Virus record (IMG/VR): IMGVR_UViG_3300025127_000225
Span: 1 to 26,549 of that record
Length of the DNA: 26,549 nucleotides
DNA from: a virus
Reading direction: 5' to 3' (one strand)
Shown here: positions 2,589 through 24,905 of the stretch, one piece after another
Layout of the letters: every line of letters begins with the position of its first letter
Numbering within the stretch: the first letter of the stretch is position 1
The notes under the pieces: model-generated
What the model saw: the letters and a program-made list of their open reading frames with translations, nothing else
What the model was told of the DNA's origin: nothing
Databases searched by the model: none
Translations under genes and position numbers: made by a program

Positions 2589-2764
2589 TATTTCATATAG
2601 TTCATGAGCAAGGCTAGAATAAGTGACCCCATTCCACCTACAATCATGTATTCTATTCTTCTAATACGTTCTTTCATTTCTTTTATTTGATCAAACGTTT
2701 GCTTCTGCATTATCCTGCAAAGCTTTTCATGTGCTTCTATTTTTTGTAGTGCCGATTTTTTCAT
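2588..2764 (-). CDS. Small holin-like membrane protein (XhlA-like), 58 aa
   Basis: A hand-translated small gene fills the space between the endolysin and the 1397-aa gene. It overlaps both as TAATG. Residues 1-39 are highly charged and probably helical, beginning MKKSALQKIEAHEKLC. Residues 40-55 form one hydrophobic helix (MIVGGMGSLILALLMN). A charged amphipathic N-terminal part followed by a single C-terminal membrane helix, plus an 'AHEKLC'-type sequence, matches small holin/XhlA-type proteins that lie directly upstream of endolysins. Its position supports a role in membrane permeabilisation at lysis. A spanin-like or other membrane accessory role cannot be excluded. Confidence 0.75.
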   Translation of the reverse strand: MKKSALQKIEAHEKLCRIMQKQTFDQIKEMKERIRRIEYMIVGGMGSLILALLMNYMK

Positions 2765-5700
2765 TATGTTCTACTCGCAATAACTTTTTCTTCAGGAGAT
2801 AGTAAAGCCTCCTGCGTACGTGTCAAGTTAGTATTTGGGTTAACATTTGCCGCTGTAGCTCTAACTATTGGTTGACCTGATGCTGGTAATGGTGGTGTTT
2901 GTATGCTTGTTTGTTGTATGGTTTGATCTGTTACAGGAGCTGCACTTTCATCACCTTTAATCTCTTCTAAATATTTTTTTAATTCTTCTAGAGCAGCTTC
3001 TTCATCAGTCTCTGGTTTTAAAGTTTTATTTTTGTATTCTCTTAATATATCTCTAAATAATTTTTTAGGATAGAAATAATCTTTGTTAATTGTTTCACCC
3101 TCTCCTCTTCTTTCAGCTTCTTTTTTAGCACTTTCAACTCTTTTCTTCATACCACCCTCAAAACCAGTAAATGGAATATTTTTACCGTCTAATAATTTTT
3201 TTGCCTTCGCATATGGTATTCTTCTTTTCCTTAAAATTTTTAATAGTTCTCTTTTAGGAACACCTACTTTTAATGCGTCTTGTATTATGTTGTGAAACTC
3301 TCTGTTTACTTTTAATGTTTCTTCTTGAATAGTTTTAAATTCATCAGCCATAACTAATGGCCCTCTATTTTGATAATTTTCTAAACTAAAAAATTTTTCA
3401 GCTGTTGTCACAGATCTAAATTTTTTATTGTAATCTGTAATTTTAAATTGCAGGGCTTTTGGTACATCTACATTTATTATTCTTATACCTGAAAATAGTG
3501 CCAGTAATTCATCTTGTAACGTTACAGGTTGACCACCTCTTTTAATATCTTTTTCTAAACCTTGAACAAGTTTACCTGCAGTCGTAATAGCTGTTGGTTG
3601 AACACCTTCAATTATGTGCACTAAACTTTTTAAAAATTGAACGTCTCCATCATCAGTTACTGAGTATACTTTAGAACCTGTTTTAGTTTCACCACCTCTA
3701 CCACCGACTATTAAACCTCTAGGTATGACGTCAGATACTTTTTCAAAGAAAATTGCTTCTGATATAAATGGTTCTAAAAGTTTTCTAATAGGTCCATCTT
3801 TACCTAACATTAAATTAAAAGCTATATTACCAGCATCTTCTTGTCTTATTTTACCCTCCTCTAAAGTTTTTAATGCAGCAGTAAAAGGTTGTTTTACAAC
3901 ATCGTACGGGCTGAAGTATGAGAAGTTAATTGCTTTTCCTACACCATCTTTCCATTTATTAATTGGTATGATTGCAGCTCTTGAATCCCAAGGTGCTGAT
4001 AAACTTCTTTTGTATGCCTCTATCTGGTCCATAGTTGTGCCAGTTAAATTTTGACCTAATGCGGATACACCTTTTTCTGCGCCACCTAATGTAACTAAGG
4101 CTCCCATCAGTCTTCTGTAACCCATCTGTCTTAGATTAGCGTTAGAAGATGTAGCTTCTTTTAATCCTATGTTTAATATATTAAATGTGGTTCTAATCAT
4201 TTCTGCAGGAAACGATACAAAGTTACCAAATGGTAACTTTCTTAAATTTTTTATTACTTCAGGGACTTTACTGTATGTTGGATATGTATTTCTTATTTGC
4301 CATGCAGCTGCCTCATCTAAAGCCTCATCAAATGTTTTTCTAGCACCAGTAAAAGTATTTATTCTATCAAACTCTCTGCCTGTTATTTCTTTGGTCCATC
4401 TTGCTATGTCATCTACATTTTTATACATAGATCTCATCTGTGATTTTACATACTCATGACCATACCATTTCCATAAGTTATCACCCCCAGCATATATTCT
4501 AGTAGCTGTTTTTAACATTCTTGAATCTGATAATCTTGCTAATAAACTATCTAGGTTTTTAACTTTAGCTCCTGAACGTATATCTTTCAATACTGCCTGT
4601 AGTTCTGATGCTACGATGTTTTCATCAATTACACCAAGACGTATTTTATTTTCTAAATTTTTTATAAATTTAGTTTCATCAATAACTTTACCAGCTCCAA
4701 ATATGTCATCCATGACCATTTTAATAGATTCTGTTACGGATGCTCTACCACCTATGTGCCCGTTTGCTAGTGGGAACATACTAGCAGATGTTACGTTTCT
4801 AACTTGTGTTGCAGGTGAAAGAACTGTTTTACCAAACTGTGTTGCCACTTTAAACTGTAGCATATTTCTATACGCAGAGGATTGTAATAAACCATCTAAT
4901 TTACCAGGTGCTCCTTTGATAGCTTTTGCCATATCTGCTGTTGCATAAAGTTTTGACATTTTAGTTTTTAATATTCCAAGATGTTCTAAGTTTCCTATTA
5001 ACTGTGCATCAGGCGCAGCGTTTAAGGCTGCAGCTTCTGATTTATATAACCAACCTTGTTTTAAACCTAAATCAGCTAATTTATCCAATGTTTGTTTATT
5101 TACTGTTTGTGTAATTGCATGTGATGTTGTCTGTAATACAGAAGATTTTAAATTATTTTCTTCTCCTAATAATTTTTTGATAGCATCTGGTAGTTCTTCT
5201 CCTGTTTTAATTAATTTATCAGATCTTAATTGATTTTTAGAAACCTGTTGTAATAATTTAAGTGGATCAACCCCATCTGTTTTTGTGTCTGTAAGAATTT
5301 TATGAACTACTGACTCTGCGTACGCGTCTAGTGCTTGAGCTTTTGTCATTCTTGGTGTTTTTAAACTTAAAGCTATCTCTCTTAAATCTTTATTTTTTGT
5401 TACAACGTTGTCCAATATAAATTTTTTAGCGCCGTCTTTTAATTTTTGATCTGGCATATACTCAGGGTTTGTAAATATAGAAAAAGATTTTCTCATGTAG
5501 GTTTTAACATTATTAAGAATAAAATTTTTAAGATCACCTTTTGGTAGTAGTTCACCAAAAATTTGTTTTGTGTTTACTATTTCTTTATTTAAATCTTCTG
5601 CTGTCTGTTGAAGAATTTTAGGGAGCTCTGATTTTTTTGCTTGTCCTTTTAAATATGCAAGAACTTGATCTAAATAATATTCTTTACTTGCAGGAGATGT

Positions 5701-6957
5701 GGTTGCTGTATTGTAATATCCTTCAAATGATTTAGCTAGTCCGTATGCTTTCTTTTCCAAAGATTCTAGATATTTTTCTATTGTTCTGCTTCTTGCTTTT
5801 ATTTCTCTTTTTGCAGTAGATGTAAGTTGAAAAGATTCACCTGTGTATTTACCAAGAGATCTAAGACCTGATAAAAAATTATCTACCTTTTTTAATCTAG
5901 CTTTTAATGGGTCTCTGCTTTTTGTAGAAAACATTCTCCACTGATCAAAAGCAGGTAGTTGTTTTAATGGATTACCTGTTAACACTGTGGCTAAAGATTT
6001 ATCTATTACAAAACTACTTGCGGTTCTTAAACCTTTACCTAAAGCCGTAGATCCTGGCACTCTTGATAAAAGATAGGTTGCAGGTCTAACTGCTAAATAA
6101 TCTACACCTTGTAATGCATAACCTGCAGGTTTAAACAAACCATACTTTGCACCAACGGTTGCTATCTTTGCAAGTGGTTTACCTAATAAAGTAAAACCAC
6201 CTCCTACTAAAGTTCCTTCTGCTCCAAATCTAAGTTTGTTTCTAAATCTAGCAAGAGCGAGATCTTGACCCTCTAGTCCCTCTTCTTTTTCAAGATCTAA
6301 AAGTAATGGATCACCTTGTTCTTTTTGCCGTGCACCAGATGTGATAAAATCTGTTGCACCAAAAGCTGTTGCCATGTATCCAGTTCTCTTAGCTACACTG
6401 ACTAATTTAGATGTGCCTCCTGCTATCTCTGCATCTGTAATTTTTTTATCTTTAAATTTTTTAGCTCTTGATATTTTTTTAGCTCTGTTCATTATCTTAA
6501 GAACAGCACCACCTGGTAAACCATATTCAATAAGAACTTTATTTACTGTTCCTAGTAATGTCTCAGGATCATCTATTGCTGTATCTTCATAAACTCTGTC
6601 TAATTTTTCAACAAGATTAGTATCGGCTGCCATATCGATACCAGTCGTGACTAGATCTCCAAAAGAAAACCCTATGTTTTGAACTGCACCATACACAGAT
6701 TTTTCAACGTCTTCAAAAAAATCTACATAATCTTTCTCTTTTGGTTTGTCCTTTTTGGACATTAATTGTTCTAGTCTATCAACTTTTAATTTATTAAAAG
6801 GGTTTGTTTCAAACAATAATCCAAAATTTCTTAAACCCTCCCATGTAAACTTCACGGGTTTCTTTTGTTTGGTAAGTGTATTTTTTATTGTGGAAGATAA
6901 AGTGTTAGATACTTCATCTTTATCTAAGATAATTTTATTCTTTTCAAAGGGTTCCAT
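2764..6957 (-). CDS. Very large structural protein, probable internal virion/DNA-ejection protein (T7 gp16-like role)
   Basis: A 1397-aa, largely helical, lysine-rich protein. It contains several Gly/Ala-rich apolar stretches, for example LPGGAVLKIM, VGGGFTLLGKPLAKIATVGA and RRLMGALVTLGGAEKGVSAL. Residues around 707-727 carry a recognisable FGKTVLSPATQVRNVTSA segment seen in large proteins of marine phages. The last 60 residues are Pro/Thr/Gln-rich and end in LLSPEEKVIASRT, suggesting a flexible tail. I see no transglycosylase catalytic motif that I can defend. Size, position after the gp14-like gene and before the lysis genes, and apolar segments resemble the largest internal core/ejection protein of T7-like phages (about 1300 aa). 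The function is inferred from context. Its stop overlaps the holin start as TAATG. Confidence 0.8.
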   Translation of the reverse strand: MEPFEKNKIILDKDEVSNTLSSTIKNTLTKQKKPVKFTWEGLRNFGLLFETNPFNKLKVDRLEQLMSKKDKPKEKDYVDFFEDVEKSVYGAVQNIGFSFGDLVTTGIDMAADTNLVEKLDRVYEDTAIDDPETLLGTVNKVLIEYGLPGGAVLKIMNRAKKISRAKKFKDKKITDAEIAGGTSKLVSVAKRTGYMATAFGATDFITSGARQKEQGDPLLLDLEKEEGLEGQDLALARFRNKLRFGAEGTLVGGGFTLLGKPLAKIATVGAKYGLFKPAGYALQGVDYLAVRPATYLLSRVPGSTALGKGLRTASSFVIDKSLATVLTGNPLKQLPAFDQWRMFSTKSRDPLKARLKKVDNFLSGLRSLGKYTGESFQLTSTAKREIKARSRTIEKYLESLEKKAYGLAKSFEGYYNTATTSPASKEYYLDQVLAYLKGQAKKSELPKILQQTAEDLNKEIVNTKQIFGELLPKGDLKNFILNNVKTYMRKSFSIFTNPEYMPDQKLKDGAKKFILDNVVTKNKDLREIALSLKTPRMTKAQALDAYAESVVHKILTDTKTDGVDPLKLLQQVSKNQLRSDKLIKTGEELPDAIKKLLGEENNLKSSVLQTTSHAITQTVNKQTLDKLADLGLKQGWLYKSEAAALNAAPDAQLIGNLEHLGILKTKMSKLYATADMAKAIKGAPGKLDGLLQSSAYRNMLQFKVATQFGKTVLSPATQVRNVTSASMFPLANGHIGGRASVTESIKMVMDDIFGAGKVIDETKFIKNLENKIRLGVIDENIVASELQAVLKDIRSGAKVKNLDSLLARLSDSRMLKTATRIYAGGDNLWKWYGHEYVKSQMRSMYKNVDDIARWTKEITGREFDRINTFTGARKTFDEALDEAAAWQIRNTYPTYSKVPEVIKNLRKLPFGNFVSFPAEMIRTTFNILNIGLKEATSSNANLRQMGYRRLMGALVTLGGAEKGVSALGQNLTGTTMDQIEAYKRSLSAPWDSRAAIIPINKWKDGVGKAINFSYFSPYDVVKQPFTAALKTLEEGKIRQEDAGNIAFNLMLGKDGPIRKLLEPFISEAIFFEKVSDVIPRGLIVGGRGGETKTGSKVYSVTDDGDVQFLKSLVHIIEGVQPTAITTAGKLVQGLEKDIKRGGQPVTLQDELLALFSGIRIINVDVPKALQFKITDYNKKFRSVTTAEKFFSLENYQNRGPLVMADEFKTIQEETLKVNREFHNIIQDALKVGVPKRELLKILRKRRIPYAKAKKLLDGKNIPFTGFEGGMKKRVESAKKEAERRGEGETINKDYFYPKKLFRDILREYKNKTLKPETDEEAALEELKKYLEEIKGDESAAPVTDQTIQQTSIQTPPLPASGQPIVRATAANVNPNTNLTRTQEALLSPEEKVIASRT

Positions 6958-6958
6958 G

Positions 6959-8086
6959 TTACGCCCCCTGTGGTAATGTCAAATTTACGTCGTATTGTTT
7001 ATTAAAGTTACTAATATCTTCTGTTGTTTGAATGTTTGCAAAATCTAACAAAGCTTTTTTACTTCTTGCCAATAACTGCACAATGTCATTTGATATTTCA
7101 TTTGGTAATCTTGCTCTTAATTCTGTAAAAGATAAATCTTGAACACTGCCTGTATCTTTTTTAGTTTCAACAACGGACTCCATTAGTGGCTCTGAACCAA
7201 CAGCTTTTTCACTACCAACACTATATTCAGCTCTACCACCTTTTTTAAAGAAAAATCTTTCTTTTAAATTTTCTATGGTTAGAGCTCTAGCTTCTCCACT
7301 ACCATCCGTAATTAATGGAAACTCTGCTAATGCTGCCTCTGGTGTTTTACCTGCATCAATAGCCTCTCTTTGTTTTACTTTTTGTGCATCATTATATGAT
7401 TTAACAACATTTGTCATTTCGGCGTCAAATAATTCTGGTGTTGATATGATTGCAGCATATTCAACAGGAGTTCCTAATTCTTTTACAAGCACGTTTTGAT
7501 TTAATCTAATAGTTTGTTCAGCAATTTTCTTTTGATCTGGTGTAGATTCAGGATTAGCTAAAGTATCTCTTGCATCAAAAATATTTTGTTGAGCTTCTAA
7601 AATAATTTGACGTTCTACCTCTGGTGTTTTTCTGTCGTCAGTAGTGCCCTCTCCTGCTTGTTCAATTTTTTCTTTTTCTAAATCATATTCTGATGCTAAT
7701 GCACTTGTGAATATATCTTTTCGTAAATCTGATTTTTCTCCACCTCTTGTCAGTTGCGCTGCTTGAAAAGTTTGAAAAGGATCTTTTGCTGCCCCAGCTG
7801 CCGTGGCTAGTAATCCAGAAAAACCTTTTCCTGCAGGTGTCGCTGATGCTAAATTTAATCCAAAGCTAGTTAAAAATCCTGGCAATGTCCCTGGTCCAAG
7901 GCTAGGTTGTCTACTAACAAATTTATCTATGTCTCCTTCAAATCTTTCTGTAGTTTTTAGTGCCCTGTCGTATGGATCTGTTCCAAGACTAAATTCTTTT
8001 CTAGGTGTATCTAAACCTGATGTGATACCAGTGCCTGCAGAGCCACCTCTCCTAAACATAGGTCTCTTTAAAATTCGATTCATCAT
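6959..8086 (-). CDS. Virion-associated protein with N-terminal FRRGG motif
   Basis: A 375-aa protein, starting at the first of two adjacent ATGs. It has a basic glycine-rich N terminus (RPMFRRGGSAGTGITSGL, residues 8-25) and a Gly/Ala-rich apolar segment (69-100). A long charged helical region spans about 115-245. A second KKGGRAEYSVG motif lies at 281-291. The C-terminal domain includes SFTELRARLPNEI and ALLDFANI. The N-terminal motif and C-terminal domain look familiar from uncultured marine phages, but I know no assigned function. It lies between the gp14-like protein and the 1397-aa protein, which suggests an internal virion component analogous in position to T7 gp15. Its start overlaps the preceding stop (TAATG), and one base separates its stop from the next ATG. 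Confidence 0.75.
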   Translation of the reverse strand: MMNRILKRPMFRRGGSAGTGITSGLDTPRKEFSLGTDPYDRALKTTERFEGDIDKFVSRQPSLGPGTLPGFLTSFGLNLASATPAGKGFSGLLATAAGAAKDPFQTFQAAQLTRGGEKSDLRKDIFTSALASEYDLEKEKIEQAGEGTTDDRKTPEVERQIILEAQQNIFDARDTLANPESTPDQKKIAEQTIRLNQNVLVKELGTPVEYAAIISTPELFDAEMTNVVKSYNDAQKVKQREAIDAGKTPEAALAEFPLITDGSGEARALTIENLKERFFFKKGGRAEYSVGSEKAVGSEPLMESVVETKKDTGSVQDLSFTELRARLPNEISNDIVQLLARSKKALLDFANIQTTEDISNFNKQYDVNLTLPQGA

Positions 8087-14561: not shown

Positions 14562-15995
14562 TTATCTAGCTACCACTGGCACTGCGGTTCCAGAATCATT
14601 GGCTACAAAAGGGTTTTCTGCAAAAGCTAAATAAATTATGGTAGACCCACTTTCATTACCATCAGTTCCAGTTGATCTCAACTTAAAACCATTACTTAAA
14701 AAATCAAATTCATTTGATGTTTCAGATTCTGCACTATTTTGATTAGGCATTAATAATTGATTAGCAGCATTAATTGGATCTCTTTGATTATCAAACAACA
14801 ACCAGCTATGACTTCCAGATGTTGTATTTTTGACTAAAACCCAAGCAGGTTTAAATCCTGTATAAATAAATGCTCCATTTGCATTACCATTACCAGTATA
14901 TGAACCAAACCTAGAGTAGCCTTTTTTTGACTTAAAACAGTAAGCAATATATTCCTCTCCACTTGCATTTACATCATCACCATCTTTAACAGTAAATACC
15001 GTTGAAGTTGGTGCTGTATCTCCCCAAAACGTATAATCTGCTACTGCATCCGTGGCATTTAAATCTATATAATCTGTTTCTGGAGCAGCTGACACTTGAT
15101 GATGATACATATGCCAACCCCCTACACTATCTAAAGATTTTACCATATATACATCAGGCACTACACCTAAACCGTGACCCACTGTTGTCGTTGTTCCTGT
15201 TCCAGCACCTGTGTATTTAACAATACTAAATCCAGCAGTGGTGTTTGGTGAAATATTTGTTTGAATACTACCATCAAAATTAGAGAAAGAATTTGTTGTT
15301 GGAGTGTTTGCTTGTCCACCCATACCAGCATGATTAGAACATTGGTAATATAGCGTTGGTGCAGAAGCCGCTACTGTAATTTCTGTGTAAGCACCTGATG
15401 AACCTGGAGTGCCATTTGTAGTAACCCCTGTTGTGTACTCTCCACCTGATTTATCTGATGATGTATAAAATCTTAATGGGTGTCCAGAGTTTGAACTATC
15501 AGATTGATCAAATCTAAATGTACCACCCTCTGATAATTCTAATGTAACTGCACTTGTACCAAAATCATCAAATCTATATTTGTTACCACTATCAGATACT
15601 ACTTTTACCACATAAGTTTTTGATGGAGTTGTTCCAGCGGCTAACCAATTCCATGCTACATAATTAGAACTGCTAGCATTAGTTTGATAGGGTGTATTAG
15701 ATCCAAGTGAAACAGTAAAACTTGTTGCCGACACCGCAGTAACACCACCATAATTTTCCCAAGTCGCACCACCGCTGTCGTTTTCTTGGTCGGTTTCATT
15801 AGAACTTAATTTTTTTGTTAAAGCAAAACCTCTAATGCAATCTTGAAGTGTATGTGCTGCAGTTGTGCCTCTGTGTTTAATCCAACTCCAATCAACTTGA
15901 AAATTAGCAGTTATTGCTTGCGTAGAGTTACCATCACCTGTGTAGGTAACTGTTTCAAAATGATCGTTAGGTTTTGTAATCGAACTATAAGCCAT
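14562..15995 (-). CDS. DUF7483-type adhesin with inserted cupredoxin-like domain
   Basis: A 477-aa virion surface protein, second copy of the DUF7483-type gene. It aligns with the 346-aa protein (17479-18519) over both halves. The N-terminal half is MAYSSITKPNDHFETVTYTG ... WIKHRG ... LQDCIRGF. The C-terminal half (235-477) is NTTAGFSIVKYTG ... VGHGLG ... FIYTGFKPAWVLVK ... NGFKLRSTG ... IYLAFAENPF. Between them lies an extra domain of about 109 residues (126-234) with H172, C219, H222 and M225 in a type-1-copper-like arrangement. No signal peptide is present, as expected for a virion part. It would contribute to host-surface recognition, which is inferred from family and context. Five bases separate its start from the upstream stop. 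Confidence 0.75.
   Translation of the reverse strand: MAYSSITKPNDHFETVTYTGDGNSTQAITANFQVDWSWIKHRGTTAAHTLQDCIRGFALTKKLSSNETDQENDSGGATWENYGGVTAVSATSFTVSLGSNTPYQTNASSSNYVAWNWLAAGTTPSKTYVVKVVSDSGNKYRFDDFGTSAVTLELSEGGTFRFDQSDSSNSGHPLRFYTSSDKSGGEYTTGVTTNGTPGSSGAYTEITVAASAPTLYYQCSNHAGMGGQANTPTTNSFSNFDGSIQTNISPNTTAGFSIVKYTGAGTGTTTTVGHGLGVVPDVYMVKSLDSVGGWHMYHHQVSAAPETDYIDLNATDAVADYTFWGDTAPTSTVFTVKDGDDVNASGEEYIAYCFKSKKGYSRFGSYTGNGNANGAFIYTGFKPAWVLVKNTTSGSHSWLLFDNQRDPINAANQLLMPNQNSAESETSNEFDFLSNGFKLRSTGTDGNESGSTIIYLAFAENPFVANDSGTAVPVVAR
15294..15620 (-). other. Cupredoxin-like domain inserted in the adhesin (residues ~126-234)
   Basis: Residues KTYVVKVVSDSGNKYRF open the domain. GTFRFDQSDSSNSGHPLRF places H172 after a beta-strand. 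TLYYQCSNHAGMGG ends it with C219-x2-H222-x2-M225. The H-to-C distance of 47 residues equals that of plastocyanin (H37-C84), and the C-x2-H-x2-M loop equals that of amicyanin (C92, H95, M98). The paralogous protein lacks the whole segment and runs straight from the N-terminal half into NTTAGFSIV. Copper binding is inferred. Confidence 0.6.
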
Positions 15996-16000
15996 AATTT

Positions 16001-17479
16001 TTATCCATAAGTATTTAAGTTAGATGTATTTAACGCATAATATCCTGAAGGTACAGTATATTCAAAGTTTCCATGACCGTTAGCATCACTGTTTCCTGAT
16101 GATATTGTATATATTGGATTACCAAAATTTGCCTGAATATTACTGTTTGATGATGTACCACCTTTAGATAATGGCAACCATATAAAGCTCATATCAATGC
16201 TTGAAAAAGCTGAGTTGCTTGTAGTTCCATTTTCTATTTCTGATTGTGTTGCGCTATTTGACCAAGTTCCATTTACACCAAACCAAAGAGTTCCATTGTC
16301 TGCATCAAAGGCAATCATGACTGTGTCTCCAGTAGATAAAGCGGAGGCATAACTACTAGCAGATCCAGACGTATCATATTTTTGTCCTGTTTGTCTTAAC
16401 AAATAACCATTAATATCTGTATTAGTTGCGGCAGAATCAAAACCTATTCCTGTATAAACATTAGAACCAAATGTAACTTTAACTTCCCAATACCATTTAC
16501 CAGCTTGAACTCCAAGAGTGCCATAGCTAAAAGTATTAACACTAGCAGCAAAAACAACTTTTAAATTACCCTCTGAATACGTTGGAACTGTTTGACCTGA
16601 TCTATACGATAAAGGATGTTGAGTGCAAAAATTTTCTACGCAAGTATCAGTCATTTGATCTGTGCTTGCTAAACCACTTACAGTAAAATTATTACTTAAT
16701 CCTGATTCATCTTTACCTAAATTTGAACTATCTTTAAAATTAAGATAAAATGAATTGGTTCCTGCATTAGCGATTTGACCTATTTTTTTAGGAGTCCATA
16801 TACCTGTTGCAGTATTGGTTTCGCCAAAGCTAGAAGGTGTAAGTGCTTGTCCATCTATAAAAACAACCTCTGCCATATACCCTTTCCATTGTTCATCACC
16901 GTTTCTTGCTCCTAAATTAAAAGTTGCTGAAGTGCTACTTAATTCTAAATCTTGACTTGAGGTTGGATAATTAGAAGTTGCAAAACTTGTAACTTCAGCT
17001 CCATTAACATATATTTTAATTCTATCTGCTTCTGTTCCATTTGTCGTATCAAATATTACATGAAAATGATACCATGCAGATTGGTCTCTATAATAAGCGT
17101 TTGTTTTAACATCATTAGAAGTTGAACCACCATCATAATGATACACTCTAAATTGACCACTACTAAAATATATCTCAACAAAGTTGTTAGAGTCTATGTA
17201 TGATGTAAATATTGCTTTATCTGGTTCTGCACTTGCTTTAACCCAAGCAGAAAAAGTAGCTGTGGTTCCGCTACCAGCAGTTGATATACTTTTTTGTGCA
17301 TAACCACTACCATCAAACAAACATGAATTATCTATATTTTCAGGAGCTTTTGGCCATTGATTGTTGCTAACAAAAGTTAGAACATCATTCATCCTCCACA
17401 CACCGCCTGCTACCCCTGTTAAAAATCCTCCTACAGGTGTATTTGTTGGTCCGATTATTCCTCCGTTTCTTCTTGACAT
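16001..17479 (-). CDS. LamG-SPRY adhesin, copy 2
   Basis: A 492-aa putative fibre or appendage protein of two concanavalin-like domains. After a short Gly-rich leader (NGGIIGPTNTP) comes a LamG-like domain (about 52-214) with FSAWVKASAEPDKAIFTSY, WYHFHVIFDTTN (136-147), IKIYVNGAEV and YMAEVVFIDGQAL. A SPRY domain (about 300-455) has GKWYWEVKV (327-335) and GDTVMIAFDADNGTLWFGVNG (384-404). The conserved tail NGHGNFEYTVPSGYYALNT follows. Both domain types commonly bind carbohydrate or protein surfaces, so host attachment is likely but unproven. The same architecture is present in the 500-aa protein (18519-20021). Its start overlaps the preceding stop (TAATG). Confidence 0.78.
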   Translation of the reverse strand: MSRRNGGIIGPTNTPVGGFLTGVAGGVWRMNDVLTFVSNNQWPKAPENIDNSCLFDGSGYAQKSISTAGSGTTATFSAWVKASAEPDKAIFTSYIDSNNFVEIYFSSGQFRVYHYDGGSTSNDVKTNAYYRDQSAWYHFHVIFDTTNGTEADRIKIYVNGAEVTSFATSNYPTSSQDLELSSTSATFNLGARNGDEQWKGYMAEVVFIDGQALTPSSFGETNTATGIWTPKKIGQIANAGTNSFYLNFKDSSNLGKDESGLSNNFTVSGLASTDQMTDTCVENFCTQHPLSYRSGQTVPTYSEGNLKVVFAASVNTFSYGTLGVQAGKWYWEVKVTFGSNVYTGIGFDSAATNTDINGYLLRQTGQKYDTSGSASSYASALSTGDTVMIAFDADNGTLWFGVNGTWSNSATQSEIENGTTSNSAFSSIDMSFIWLPLSKGGTSSNSNIQANFGNPIYTISSGNSDANGHGNFEYTVPSGYYALNTSNLNTYG

Positions 17480-18519
17480 TATCTTGCTGTCCCCGCTGCT
17501 TTAGTTCCTTCTGATACAAATGGTGCCTCAGCCACTGCATAATATATATATGTTGATCCTGAAGAATTAGTATCTGTTGCGTTACCTCTTGCTTTGAAAC
17601 CATTTGCACAAAAATCAAATACTTTTGTGCCAGATGTTCCCTCAGCATTTGATAGATTGTAAAAAAGTTGTTTATCCATTTCATTTATAGTTTGAGATTT
17701 ATTATTGTAAACTGCCCAGTTACCTGTACCACTTGATCTTTTCACCATCAAATAAGCTGGTTGAAAGCCAGTATATACAAATGTGCCATCACTATTTCCG
17801 TTACCAACATAAGATGATATTTTTGAAAACCCTTTTATACTTCTAAAACAATACGCAATAAAAGTTTGACTACTTCCTATTGCTGTGCCCGTACCAAAAA
17901 CTGCAGATGTAGGTGATGTATCATTAAAAACAGTGGTATTATCTGTTCTTGCTCCTGTACTATGCCATTGCACATAATAATCCTCTGGTGCAGAAGCATC
18001 AATTCCTTTATGATATGCGTACCATGATCCAGCAGAATCTCTTCTTTTAACTACTATATATTCTGGTGCGCTTCCAAGTCCATGACCGACTGTTTCCGCA
18101 CTTCCTGTTCCTGTCCATGCCACAATACTAAATCCAGCAGTTGTGTTTGCAGATACAGAACTTGTTACACTTCCTTGTGAATTTGATGATGGAGAGCCAC
18201 CAGCTTTCCAATGCCATGATACTATATTTTTACCACTTCCATTTGTTGCTGATTGTGATCCTGTAGTAAATCCATCAGTATCAAAAGATGTTATTGATGC
18301 AGAATAAGTAGTGTCACCATTATTTGCGTTAGAAAAAAGTGTTACACCAACACCTCTTATTATATCTTGAAGATAATGAAAAAGTGTTGCATCTCTGTCT
18401 TTTATCCAGACCCAATCTGGTTTAAAACCTACTCCTGTAACTGATTGTGTTCCACCATTTCCTGTGTACAAAACTGTATTAAAATGATTTTTTGGATTAT
18501 CTATTGTTGTATAAGCCAT
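17479..18519 (-). CDS. DUF7483-type adhesin, copy 1
   Basis: A 346-aa beta-rich virion protein, the simpler paralogue of the 477-aa protein. Shared landmarks are MAYTTIDNPKNHFNTVLYTG at the start, PDWVWIKDRD, LQDIIRGVG, IVSWHWKAGG (99-108), NTTAGFSIVAWTG (125-137), VGHGLGSAPEYIVVK, YIYYAVAEAPFV and a final ALA-Arg-type tail (GTAR). It has no copper-like insert: residues 106-125 are a short Ser-rich linker. The family is known from marine phage genomes as a domain of unknown function. A role in the adhesion apparatus is inferred from its pairing with LamG-SPRY genes. It overlaps both neighbours by TAATG. Confidence 0.75.
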   Translation of the reverse strand: MAYTTIDNPKNHFNTVLYTGNGGTQSVTGVGFKPDWVWIKDRDATLFHYLQDIIRGVGVTLFSNANNGDTTYSASITSFDTDGFTTGSQSATNGSGKNIVSWHWKAGGSPSSNSQGSVTSSVSANTTAGFSIVAWTGTGSAETVGHGLGSAPEYIVVKRRDSAGSWYAYHKGIDASAPEDYYVQWHSTGARTDNTTVFNDTSPTSAVFGTGTAIGSSQTFIAYCFRSIKGFSKISSYVGNGNSDGTFVYTGFQPAYLMVKRSSGTGNWAVYNNKSQTINEMDKQLFYNLSNAEGTSGTKVFDFCANGFKARGNATDTNSSGSTYIYYAVAEAPFVSEGTKAAGTAR

Positions 18520-20021
18520 TATCCGAACTCCGATAAGTTTTTAGTGTTTAATGCAAAATAACCCGATGGCACTGAATATTCAAAATTACCATGACCATTC
18601 GCATCTGCATTTCCTGATGAGATTGAGAATGATGGAGAGCCAAAGTTACCATCAAATACAACTGTGTTACTACCAAAATCACTTAATGCTGGAAAATAAT
18701 TTCCATAAGGTGTTGATGTAGGTGCTGTTATAGATATTGCTCCCGTTCCTGTAGAACCACTTGTAGGGTCACCACTATTTTGAAAAGTTCCATTTTTAGA
18801 GAAATATAATTTGTTATTATCTAAATCTAAAGCTACTCCTATAATATCTCCAGTGGTGTAAGTGTTACCATAAGATGTATAGCCATCGTTATTTCTATAT
18901 TGACCAGTTCCAGAAACATAAGCATAATCTGTTGAATTATGTCCAAGTTCGTTATTAGCAGTTGTTTGAGATGAGGCTATACCAATCATAGCATATCCTC
19001 CTGTATCTGATACAAATTTAACTTCCCAATACCACTTTCCATTTGAAACACCTATCGTCGCTGGAATCGGTGCTTGATTAGTGGATCCTGTTGTATATCT
19101 AATATTTCCTTCAGACGTTGTTCCCTGTCCATAATAATTATCTAAAGGATTCCATGTTGCAACATTAATGCTACATGTATCAGTAGATTGATCGGTGCTT
19201 GCTAAATTATTAGCAGTAAAATCATTTCCATTTCCTGAAGTATCGTCACCTAAAGCAGATGAATCAGAAAAATTTAATTTAAATCCGTTGGTGCCATACG
19301 TCCCTGTATATGCTATGGGTTCCCAAATATTTGTGACAGGATTAAATGCACCAAATGAATTTTGATCCAATGTTTGCCCGTCTACTAAAATATATTCTGT
19401 ACAGTACCCGCCATAATGTAAATCGTTTGAAGATCCTAAATATCTTCTAAATAAATTTAAATTAGCACTATCATTATTGATACCTGTGTTTGCATTTTGT
19501 GATGGATTATTGTTTGTATCAAATTGTGTTTCCTCTACGCCATTAATATACATTTTAACTCTATCACTAGCTGTTGATTGTGTTGTATCAACTGCAATTA
19601 TAATATTATACCACGCTGTAACATCACGAAAAACTCTTGTCGTTCTTCTCCATACAGTATTATAACCCATAAAATCCAACCTATCATCACTTCTAAATCT
19701 CAAAATTCCACAAGCAGTATCACTGTTTGATGTCCAACCTTCCATAAGAAATTCAAATGCAGATGAAACTATTCCTCTTTTTGTCCATAAAGAAAGTGTA
19801 TATTTATCATTATTTGTAGCTGTCCCATTTGTACGATTAAAATAAGGAGAATCAGATTTATTTAATCTGACGGAATTAGTAAAAGTTATTCGTGGAAAAG
19901 CTGGAGGCCATATGGATGAAGATTGAGCTTCAAATTGATCTTGTAAAGTCCATACACCAGAAGCAACTGTAGTTGTTGGTGTGTTTATTTTTCCTATGAC
20001 TCCACCGTTATCTTGGTTCAT
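18519..20021 (-). CDS. LamG-SPRY adhesin, copy 1
   Basis: A 500-aa protein with the same layout as the 492-aa one. It opens with the leader NGGVIGKINTPT. A LamG-like domain (about 50-218) follows with YTLSLWTKRG, AWYNIIIAVDTTQ (136-148), VKMYINGVEE and TEYILVDGQTL. The SPRY domain (about 305-460) has GKWYWEVKF (328-336) and GDIIGVALDLDNNKLYFSKNG (391-411). The tail is NGHGNFEYSVPSGYFALNT. Conservation of both ends suggests the N terminus docks to the virion and the C-terminal motif caps the SPRY fold (inference). A strong ribosome site (AAGGAG, 8-9 nt upstream) makes this the likely entry point for translation of the four-gene cassette, because the next two starts are TAATG overlaps. Confidence 0.78.
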   Translation of the reverse strand: MNQDNGGVIGKINTPTTTVASGVWTLQDQFEAQSSSIWPPAFPRITFTNSVRLNKSDSPYFNRTNGTATNNDKYTLSLWTKRGIVSSAFEFLMEGWTSNSDTACGILRFRSDDRLDFMGYNTVWRRTTRVFRDVTAWYNIIIAVDTTQSTASDRVKMYINGVEETQFDTNNNPSQNANTGINNDSANLNLFRRYLGSSNDLHYGGYCTEYILVDGQTLDQNSFGAFNPVTNIWEPIAYTGTYGTNGFKLNFSDSSALGDDTSGNGNDFTANNLASTDQSTDTCSINVATWNPLDNYYGQGTTSEGNIRYTTGSTNQAPIPATIGVSNGKWYWEVKFVSDTGGYAMIGIASSQTTANNELGHNSTDYAYVSGTGQYRNNDGYTSYGNTYTTGDIIGVALDLDNNKLYFSKNGTFQNSGDPTSGSTGTGAISITAPTSTPYGNYFPALSDFGSNTVVFDGNFGSPSFSISSGNADANGHGNFEYSVPSGYFALNTKNLSEFG

Positions 20022-23662: not shown

Positions 23663-24153
23663 GCTGTTACTGTTACTGGCCCTGCTGATGCAAAACCGCC
23701 TCCTCCAGACTCAGTTATACTAGATGTTGTAGCTGTTGCAAAGGTATAATTATCATCATCTACTTTTGTAATTGTGTATCCTGCAGCTAAATTTATCGTT
23801 GCTGCAGCGACTCCACCAACAACTTCTGCATTTCTAAATCTAACTGTATCAGATGTTGATCTACCATGATTTGGTTCGTTAACAGATATTGTTGCAGATC
23901 CATTTGTTGTTGTAAAAGCATTAAGTGGTAAAATTTTAGGAACAGCTGTTTCTGTTCTATCTGGTCTAACATTACGTAAAGATATAGAATCACCATTCAT
24001 AGGTTTTGGTTCTAATTGTGGTTGCTTTGGTTCAAACTCTGACACATGCACAAATGATCCATTCCATTCTCTAACCATTTCTTTGTATGGAAACTCCATA
24101 CCTGATCTGTCTGATATTGCTCTTGCGTATTTACCTGTTGCGTATTTAGCCAT
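23659..24153 (-). CDS. Connector-region protein with a mobile Ig-like module
   Basis: A 164-aa protein. The N-terminal 75 residues (MAKYATGKYARAISDRSGM, YKEMVREWNG, EFEPKQPQLEPKP, ARPDRTE-type segment at 61-69) look like a conserved phage protein found with the gp4-like adaptor. The C-terminal part (79-153) starts AFTTTNGSATISVNEPNHG and ends in a Gly-rich run; it matches the insert in the 727-aa hub protein. The module is likely a small beta-sandwich. The first ATG overlaps the previous stop (TAATG), which fixes the start. The function, probably structural, is inferred from location. Confidence 0.72.
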   Translation of the reverse strand: MAKYATGKYARAISDRSGMEFPYKEMVREWNGSFVHVSEFEPKQPQLEPKPMNGDSISLRNVRPDRTETAVPKILPLNAFTTTNGSATISVNEPNHGRSTSDTVRFRNAEVVGGVAAATINLAAGYTITKVDDDNYTFATATTSSITESGGGGFASAGPVTVTA

Positions 24154-24905
24154 TATGCTCCTGGGTAATATGCTTTTGGTGTTATGTGTGTGCTAGATGC
24201 AGAGCCATCTTCTGCTAACGCTCTTTGAAACTCATCTTCATACACTAATTTCATTGGTTGTATTAGTTGTGGAGCATACTTTTGCGCAAGATAATATGTC
24301 AATCCAGATACCATGCAAGGCACAAATCTGAAAGGAACATCTGTTGCGTTAGTATAATCTCCTACATCTTGTATTCTTTTTATAAAATAAAAATGCATAT
24401 CTTTAGATGCATTAGTAGAATCTGGTGTTGGATAGATATGTATTCTAACTTTATCAATAAATCTTTCTACCCAATATTGATTAGGTGTGCCTTTTGATAA
24501 TTTATTAGAAAAACCTGCATACGTTGATCTATCAACTTTAGTCATTGGACTATCTGATTGATCTGTAGAGGTTCTATTTGATCTTAACTGTGCTTCAAGA
24601 ACATCGGATACACCAAACACACTAGCAGGAGCTGTAGTAGTAGCACTCGTGCCATCATCGCTTGATCTAAAAAAGTCATAATCTGACTGACCTTCTATTA
24701 AATCTAAGTTAGTTTCTCCTACTTCCCAGTAGTGAATACCTCTATTACCCCACTCTTGAAACATTATATTTAATGTTCTACGAGCATTTTTTAGTTGATA
24801 TCCCGCTACGTTTTGTAGTCCTAATCTTTCAAAAGCCTCCTCTATTATTTCATCAATAGCAAAAGTCTTATCGAAAGTAGTTGTTCCCGAGGTAGTGTTA
24901 GCCAT
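24153..24905 (-). CDS. Head-tail adaptor/tail accessory factor (P22 gp4-like)
   Basis: A 250-aa protein. Residues 16-60 (AIDEIIEEAFERLGLQNVAG, then ARRTLNIMFQEWGNRGIHYW) are the helical signature of P22 gp4-like tail accessory factors, which bind the portal after DNA packaging. The middle carries a Ser/Thr-rich insert (SDDGTSATTTAPASVFG) and a strand region (YWVERFIDKVRIHIYPTP). The C-terminal helix is FVPCMVSGLTYYLAQKYA. At 250 residues it is longer than P22 gp4 (166). It precedes two other connector proteins in the same operon. The ribosome site AGGAGG lies 4-5 nt upstream. Confidence 0.8.
   Translation of the reverse strand: MANTTSGTTTFDKTFAIDEIIEEAFERLGLQNVAGYQLKNARRTLNIMFQEWGNRGIHYWEVGETNLDLIEGQSDYDFFRSSDDGTSATTTAPASVFGVSDVLEAQLRSNRTSTDQSDSPMTKVDRSTYAGFSNKLSKGTPNQYWVERFIDKVRIHIYPTPDSTNASKDMHFYFIKRIQDVGDYTNATDVPFRFVPCMVSGLTYYLAQKYAPQLIQPMKLVYEDEFQRALAEDGSASSTHITPKAYYPGA

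Follow-up and report, generated by a model that had tools for sequence, protein, structure and literature searches.

The 109-residue block that interrupts a DUF7483 virion protein in a 26.5-kb viral contig (the window, i.e. the whole stretch of 26,549 nucleotides that was analysed) is almost certainly a cupredoxin domain, and it carries the four residues of a type-1 copper site. Copper binding in nature, judged from these ligands, is probable. The fuller proposition, that this is a mobile cupredoxin with the complete type-1 set which binds copper and has a decoration or adhesion role on virions, seems to us about evenly balanced. The features concerned are:

14562..15995, minus strand: DUF7483 virion protein bearing the insert, 477 aa (PF24299, E 2.2e-101; PHROG virion structural and tail fiber families)
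15294..15620, minus strand: cupredoxin-like insert, residues 126-234, absent from the paralogue (AlphaFold2 pLDDT 92.3; VIA-align and Copper-bind profile matches)
15480..15482, minus strand: codon of H172, putative copper ligand 1
15339..15341, minus strand: codon of C219, putative copper ligand 2 and sole Cys of the insert
15330..15332, minus strand: codon of H222, putative copper ligand 3
15321..15323, minus strand: codon of M225, putative axial copper ligand
17479..18519, minus strand: DUF7483 paralogue without the insert, 346 aa, used for comparison by alignment (PF24299, E 1.5e-113, one stretch, 9-333)
24153..24905, minus strand: phrog_12985 protein without a cupredoxin (45% identity to residues 135-361 of P0001, its homologue in phage 023Pt_psg01)

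The 477-residue ORF matches Pfam DUF7483 with 339.7 bits against a cut-off of 27, the match being split over two stretches, and the annotation of its PHROG families would make it a virion protein. Alignment to the 346-residue paralogue, whose match is continuous, places the extra block in a Ser/Gly-rich linker separating the two parts of DUF7483, and both the block and the positions of H172, C219, H222 and M225 are as an earlier note on this DNA had described them. As the window helicase and a structural protein have their nearest relatives in phage 023Pt_psg01 and the Pelagibacter phages HTVC027P and HTVC023P, the contig is probably a relative of HTVC023P-type pelagiphages. The insert-bearing gene lies in a duplication-like region of two SPRY + DUF7483 gene pairs in tandem, one of which also has LamG (14562-20021, minus strand); SPRY, LamG and DUF7483 parts are fused in other phages (phrog_19943). 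Elsewhere in the window a 375-aa ORF amid virion genes (6959-8086, minus strand) weakly resembles protein-arginine deiminase, at a sub-threshold E of 0.0032, and a 1397-aa ORF (2764-6957, minus strand) has no match in Pfam or PHROG.

AlphaFold2 modelled the insert from 26 sequences as eight strands with a pLDDT of 92.3 and a pTM of 0.85. In cupredoxins a His precedes a strand, the Cys ends a strand, and a second His and the Met lie in the loop that follows; the model has His47 (H172) immediately before a strand, Cys94 (C219) at the end of another, and His97 and Met100 in the loop after it. The top eight Foldseek matches in the PDB are all rusticyanin entries (probability 0.98-0.99, E 0.009-0.02), and VIA-align returned cupredoxin-fold proteins in all 50 of its rows, the highest Z, 8.7, going to Hyphomicrobium nitrite reductase through its N-terminal domain, with rusticyanin (8.1), the purple cupredoxin of Nitrosopumilus (7.5) and laccases among them. 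The full-length model (pLDDT 83.6, pTM 0.87) matches the same cupredoxins through its insert residues, with Z up to 9.8 over 104 residues, and its DUF7483 part gave no clear fold match in the structural search. These values are moderate (best E 0.009, Z below 10), so the fold call rests on the uniformity of the match list together with the sequence evidence; on that footing the predicted fold is a Greek-key β-sandwich of cupredoxin type, whereas the earlier note would have counted a fold lacking such a barrel as refutation. A 124-residue β-sandwich protein of Pithovirus LCPAC302 in BFVD (A0A481Z6J5) also matches the insert fold, at E 3e-5; the module may also be present in a giant virus.

The insert itself has no Pfam match and does not reach the Copper-bind (PF00127) cut-off. 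A profile of 25 diverse relatives (A2) is invariant only in columns F, H, C, H, M and G, and a comparison set of twenty Copper-bind domains gathered from bacterial genomes is invariant in G, H, C, H and M. An hhalign comparison of the two puts His, Cys and His, the first three ligands, in register (E 4e-5, probability 70%). Its score is 30.3; none of 300 column-shuffled profiles scored above 21.2, and the reversed profile scored 18. Phage copies found with the A2 profile bridge the remaining distance, those of P-SSM2 and P-HM1 matching Cupredoxin_1 at 2.7e-4 and Copper-bind at 4.6e-4 and 9.4e-4; such copies fall just under the curated cut-offs, the best phage copy scoring 21.0 bits against Copper-bind where 21.2 are required. 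Residues 313-409 of S-TIM4 gp9 match the copper nitrite reductase 2vmj at E 0.005. Together these comparisons argue for homology to known cupredoxins. Direct sequence search of the PDB was set aside as evidence, since the insert reached pseudoazurin only at E 0.2 and the profile gave E 0.95 beside antibodies. Several copies also match the At5g54830-like domain PF25489 (E 0.0002-0.04).

The insert has the type-1 copper order His, Cys, His, Met, the last three in one loop, and among its relatives in IMG/VR, phages and bacterial genome records each of the four is invariant (121/121), in a set biased by search patterns some of which contained the C-x2-H motif. Conservation was therefore recounted on domains found by profile: matches to A2 were located in 21 phage genomes, nearly all of them retrieved, and scored by column. 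This gave 64 domains, two interrupted ones being counted once each and the genomes having themselves been selected as domain carriers; 35 have the complete ligand set, 28 lack the C-H-M triad and a single copy, that of S-CAM4, is partial, keeping H, C and H and losing M. The first His is still in register in 3 of the 28 triad-less copies. Among these phage domains the ligand site is retained or lost as a unit, where the earlier note had envisaged free variation of C219 or H172 as counter-evidence. Loss as a unit is the pattern that would be expected of a metal site and not of a folding requirement. Since many phage copies remain recognisable without ligands, the metal would appear dispensable for the fold in some contexts; where the site persists, its conservation suggests that the metal matters, be it for stability, for copper-dependent adhesion or for redox chemistry. 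The cupredoxin-like domain that the earlier note proposed has strong support from the fold prediction, the profile comparisons and the conserved ligands. Its likening of the H-C spacing of 47 to plastocyanin is rejected, as the spacing varies from 41 to 76 among relatives, with a mode of 50, and is not diagnostic.

Searches with the insert found 172 phage records when the E limit was 1e-5 and 277 when it was 1e-3, with marine hosts or sources where these are named, and at least 594 stretches in IMG/VR, while the version on gp9 found 347 phage records, nearly all cyanophages. Among 160 domains examined, 40 adjoin DUF7483, mostly at the same site, and 57 lie at the C-terminus of their protein. 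The module forms the C-terminus of T4-like gp9, whose N-terminus matches T4 gp9/gp10; it is also in the next gene, in proteins of S-TIM5, P-SSM2 and Syn1 that are structural or belong to fibres, on T7-type tail fibres (PF03906) in SAR11 genome records and in SU10-type adaptor fusions (neck adaptors). In phage 023Pt_psg01 it is N-terminal on an adaptor-like phrog_12985 protein, whose window homologue has none, so the carrier protein differs between relatives. The sequences indicate that the module is mobile, being borne by different virion proteins in close relatives, and that it is widespread in marine phages and no peculiarity of one adhesin or phage. The earlier note's picture of a cupredoxin inserted into a phage adhesin holds for the cupredoxin; as gp9, neck adaptors and tail fibres are among the virion proteins that carry copies, its placement in a receptor-binding part is unproven, as is any tail-tip role for the DUF7483 carrier, which is annotated as virion structural or tail fiber.

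Individual carriers vary in their make-up. The baseplate wedge gp9 of T4-like cyanophages has its C-terminal cupredoxin-like domain with all four ligands (S-TIM4, L240:553-1785; same gene in L234-L239), and the gene that follows has a copy with ligands plus, in several phages, one without. A small phage protein of phrog_28581, zinc-ribbon-like in its CDRCGF...CPxCYE motif, has a cupredoxin-like C-terminus (L217:2569-3288, L208, L068 and about 50 similar IMG/VR ORFs); the L208 protein has two such domains in tandem, and many relatives are without the zinc-type cysteines. Outside phages, at five SAR86 loci near metabolic genes, the domain makes up a protein of its own that bears a lipoprotein-type signal. 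At these loci (L106:5764-9231, L108, L114, L116, L120) the lipoprotein-type gene is followed by one for a secreted protein, 966-997 aa where complete and with no Pfam match, and the pair recurs together with an upstream short-chain dehydrogenase gene. In a SAR116 single-cell contig (L098:5938-7056) the domain shares one protein with DUF5648 and a calcium-binding repeat of RTX type, a combination that points to secretion by the bacterium.

We infer that each domain would hold one copper ion between loops at one end of the β sandwich, with no disulfide, and that the bound metal would pin these loops to give a stable surface domain, exposed on the virion and used there for decoration or adhesion, much as phage Ig-like domains are proposed to be. 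Its presence on many particle parts favours such a general decorating, stabilising or adhesive role over a single receptor or redox partner, and the whole suggests that marine phage virions bind copper. The redox or metal function raised in the earlier note is still unproven, copper binding being read from the ligands.

The same copper domain could instead perform redox or copper chemistry at infection, docking to an electron-transfer partner in the host periplasm or at its surface or exploiting copper uptake. The type-1 set is complete down to the axial Met, the stand-alone SAR86 lipoproteins imply that the domain also works at a cell surface or in the periplasm, and iron-binding fibres provide a precedent for metal on phage tails; yet the module sits also on neck adaptors and other parts distant from the receptor, the site has been lost from many tail-fibre copies and no partner protein is known, and we judge this reading unlikely. 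Of similarly low probability is that the four residues hold mainly another metal, zinc or iron, or bind metal for structure only, leaving the native virion without a blue-copper centre. There is little free copper in the cytoplasm, the site of phage assembly; iron is known from tail fibres; and residues around a structural metal would likewise persist or vanish together. Against this, H, C, H, M is the order of the type-1 copper set, Met is a poor ligand for zinc or iron and is here invariant, and the nearest structures are those of copper proteins. A metal-free β-sandwich, cupredoxin by ancestry only and keeping these residues for packing, would suit the 28 copies still recognisable without the triad, but is very improbable, because packing alone does not predict all-or-none loss and because copies with the triad have the distant His too, in phages and in SAR86 lipoproteins at about 50% identity. 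That the H, C, H, M pattern arose by chance in an unrelated, Ig-like domain of phages could be read into the antibodies and titin at lower Foldseek ranks and the antibodies beside pseudoazurin in the PDB profile search, but is already disfavoured, and scarcely credible, given that VIA-align returned cupredoxins throughout despite the many Ig chains in the Foldseek list, that the shuffled profiles scored lower and that bridging copies match cupredoxin families.

Copper-bearing decoration modules, our preferred reading, would have consequences well beyond this contig. We would extend it only tentatively, and with some doubt, to the claim that loaded blue-copper centres are standard virion parts of abundant marine phages (cyanomyoviruses, pelagiphages and relatives), several to a particle and needed for attachment or persistence. 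If that were true phages would form an oceanic copper-binding pool and would be viruses with type-1 copper sites as built-in particle components, of which we have seen no description. The hosts concerned, Synechococcus, Prochlorococcus, SAR11 and Methylophilales, rank with the ocean's most abundant cells. Were copper held, virions would be metalloparticles with a tightly bound trace metal, and copper might govern how stable they are and how they attach; proteins now listed by the hundred as ‘hypothetical’ or ‘tail fiber’ would gain a testable property, with the all-or-none loss of ligands supplying natural controls with and without the site.

In open-access papers we found no description of a cupredoxin as a phage virion domain; one paper linking copper binding and tail fibers has no bearing here, its subject being a viral NirK of the ordinary kind. 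The phages themselves are already known, and superfamily-level database annotation may already tag some copies; what appears new is the recognition of a virion-borne cupredoxin family. Members of PHROG 30742, 27200, 693, 677 and 708, from marine phage tails and baseplates, contain the same domain, but these are whole-protein clusters annotated without mention of a cupredoxin. Type-1 cupredoxins (PF00127, PF13473, rusticyanin and the N-terminal domain of Hyphomicrobium nitrite reductase) share with the insert its predicted fold, the H...C-x2-H-x2-M pattern and the strand positions of the ligands; they differ in being secreted electron carriers or enzymes, whereas the insert lies below Pfam thresholds and in a virion protein. 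Phage Ig-like domains such as T4 Hoc are likewise mobile β-sandwich modules found on different virion proteins, with a proposed role in decoration or adhesion (PMC10385173), but belong to another fold family and have no metal ligand set. For metal on the tails of marine phages the closest parallel is the iron-binding HxH motif of tail fibres, in T4 gp37 and Alteromonas phage R22Y (PMC11705849): there too metal-binding residues occur in phage tail proteins, though the iron is held between intertwined fibre chains and not in a cupredoxin.
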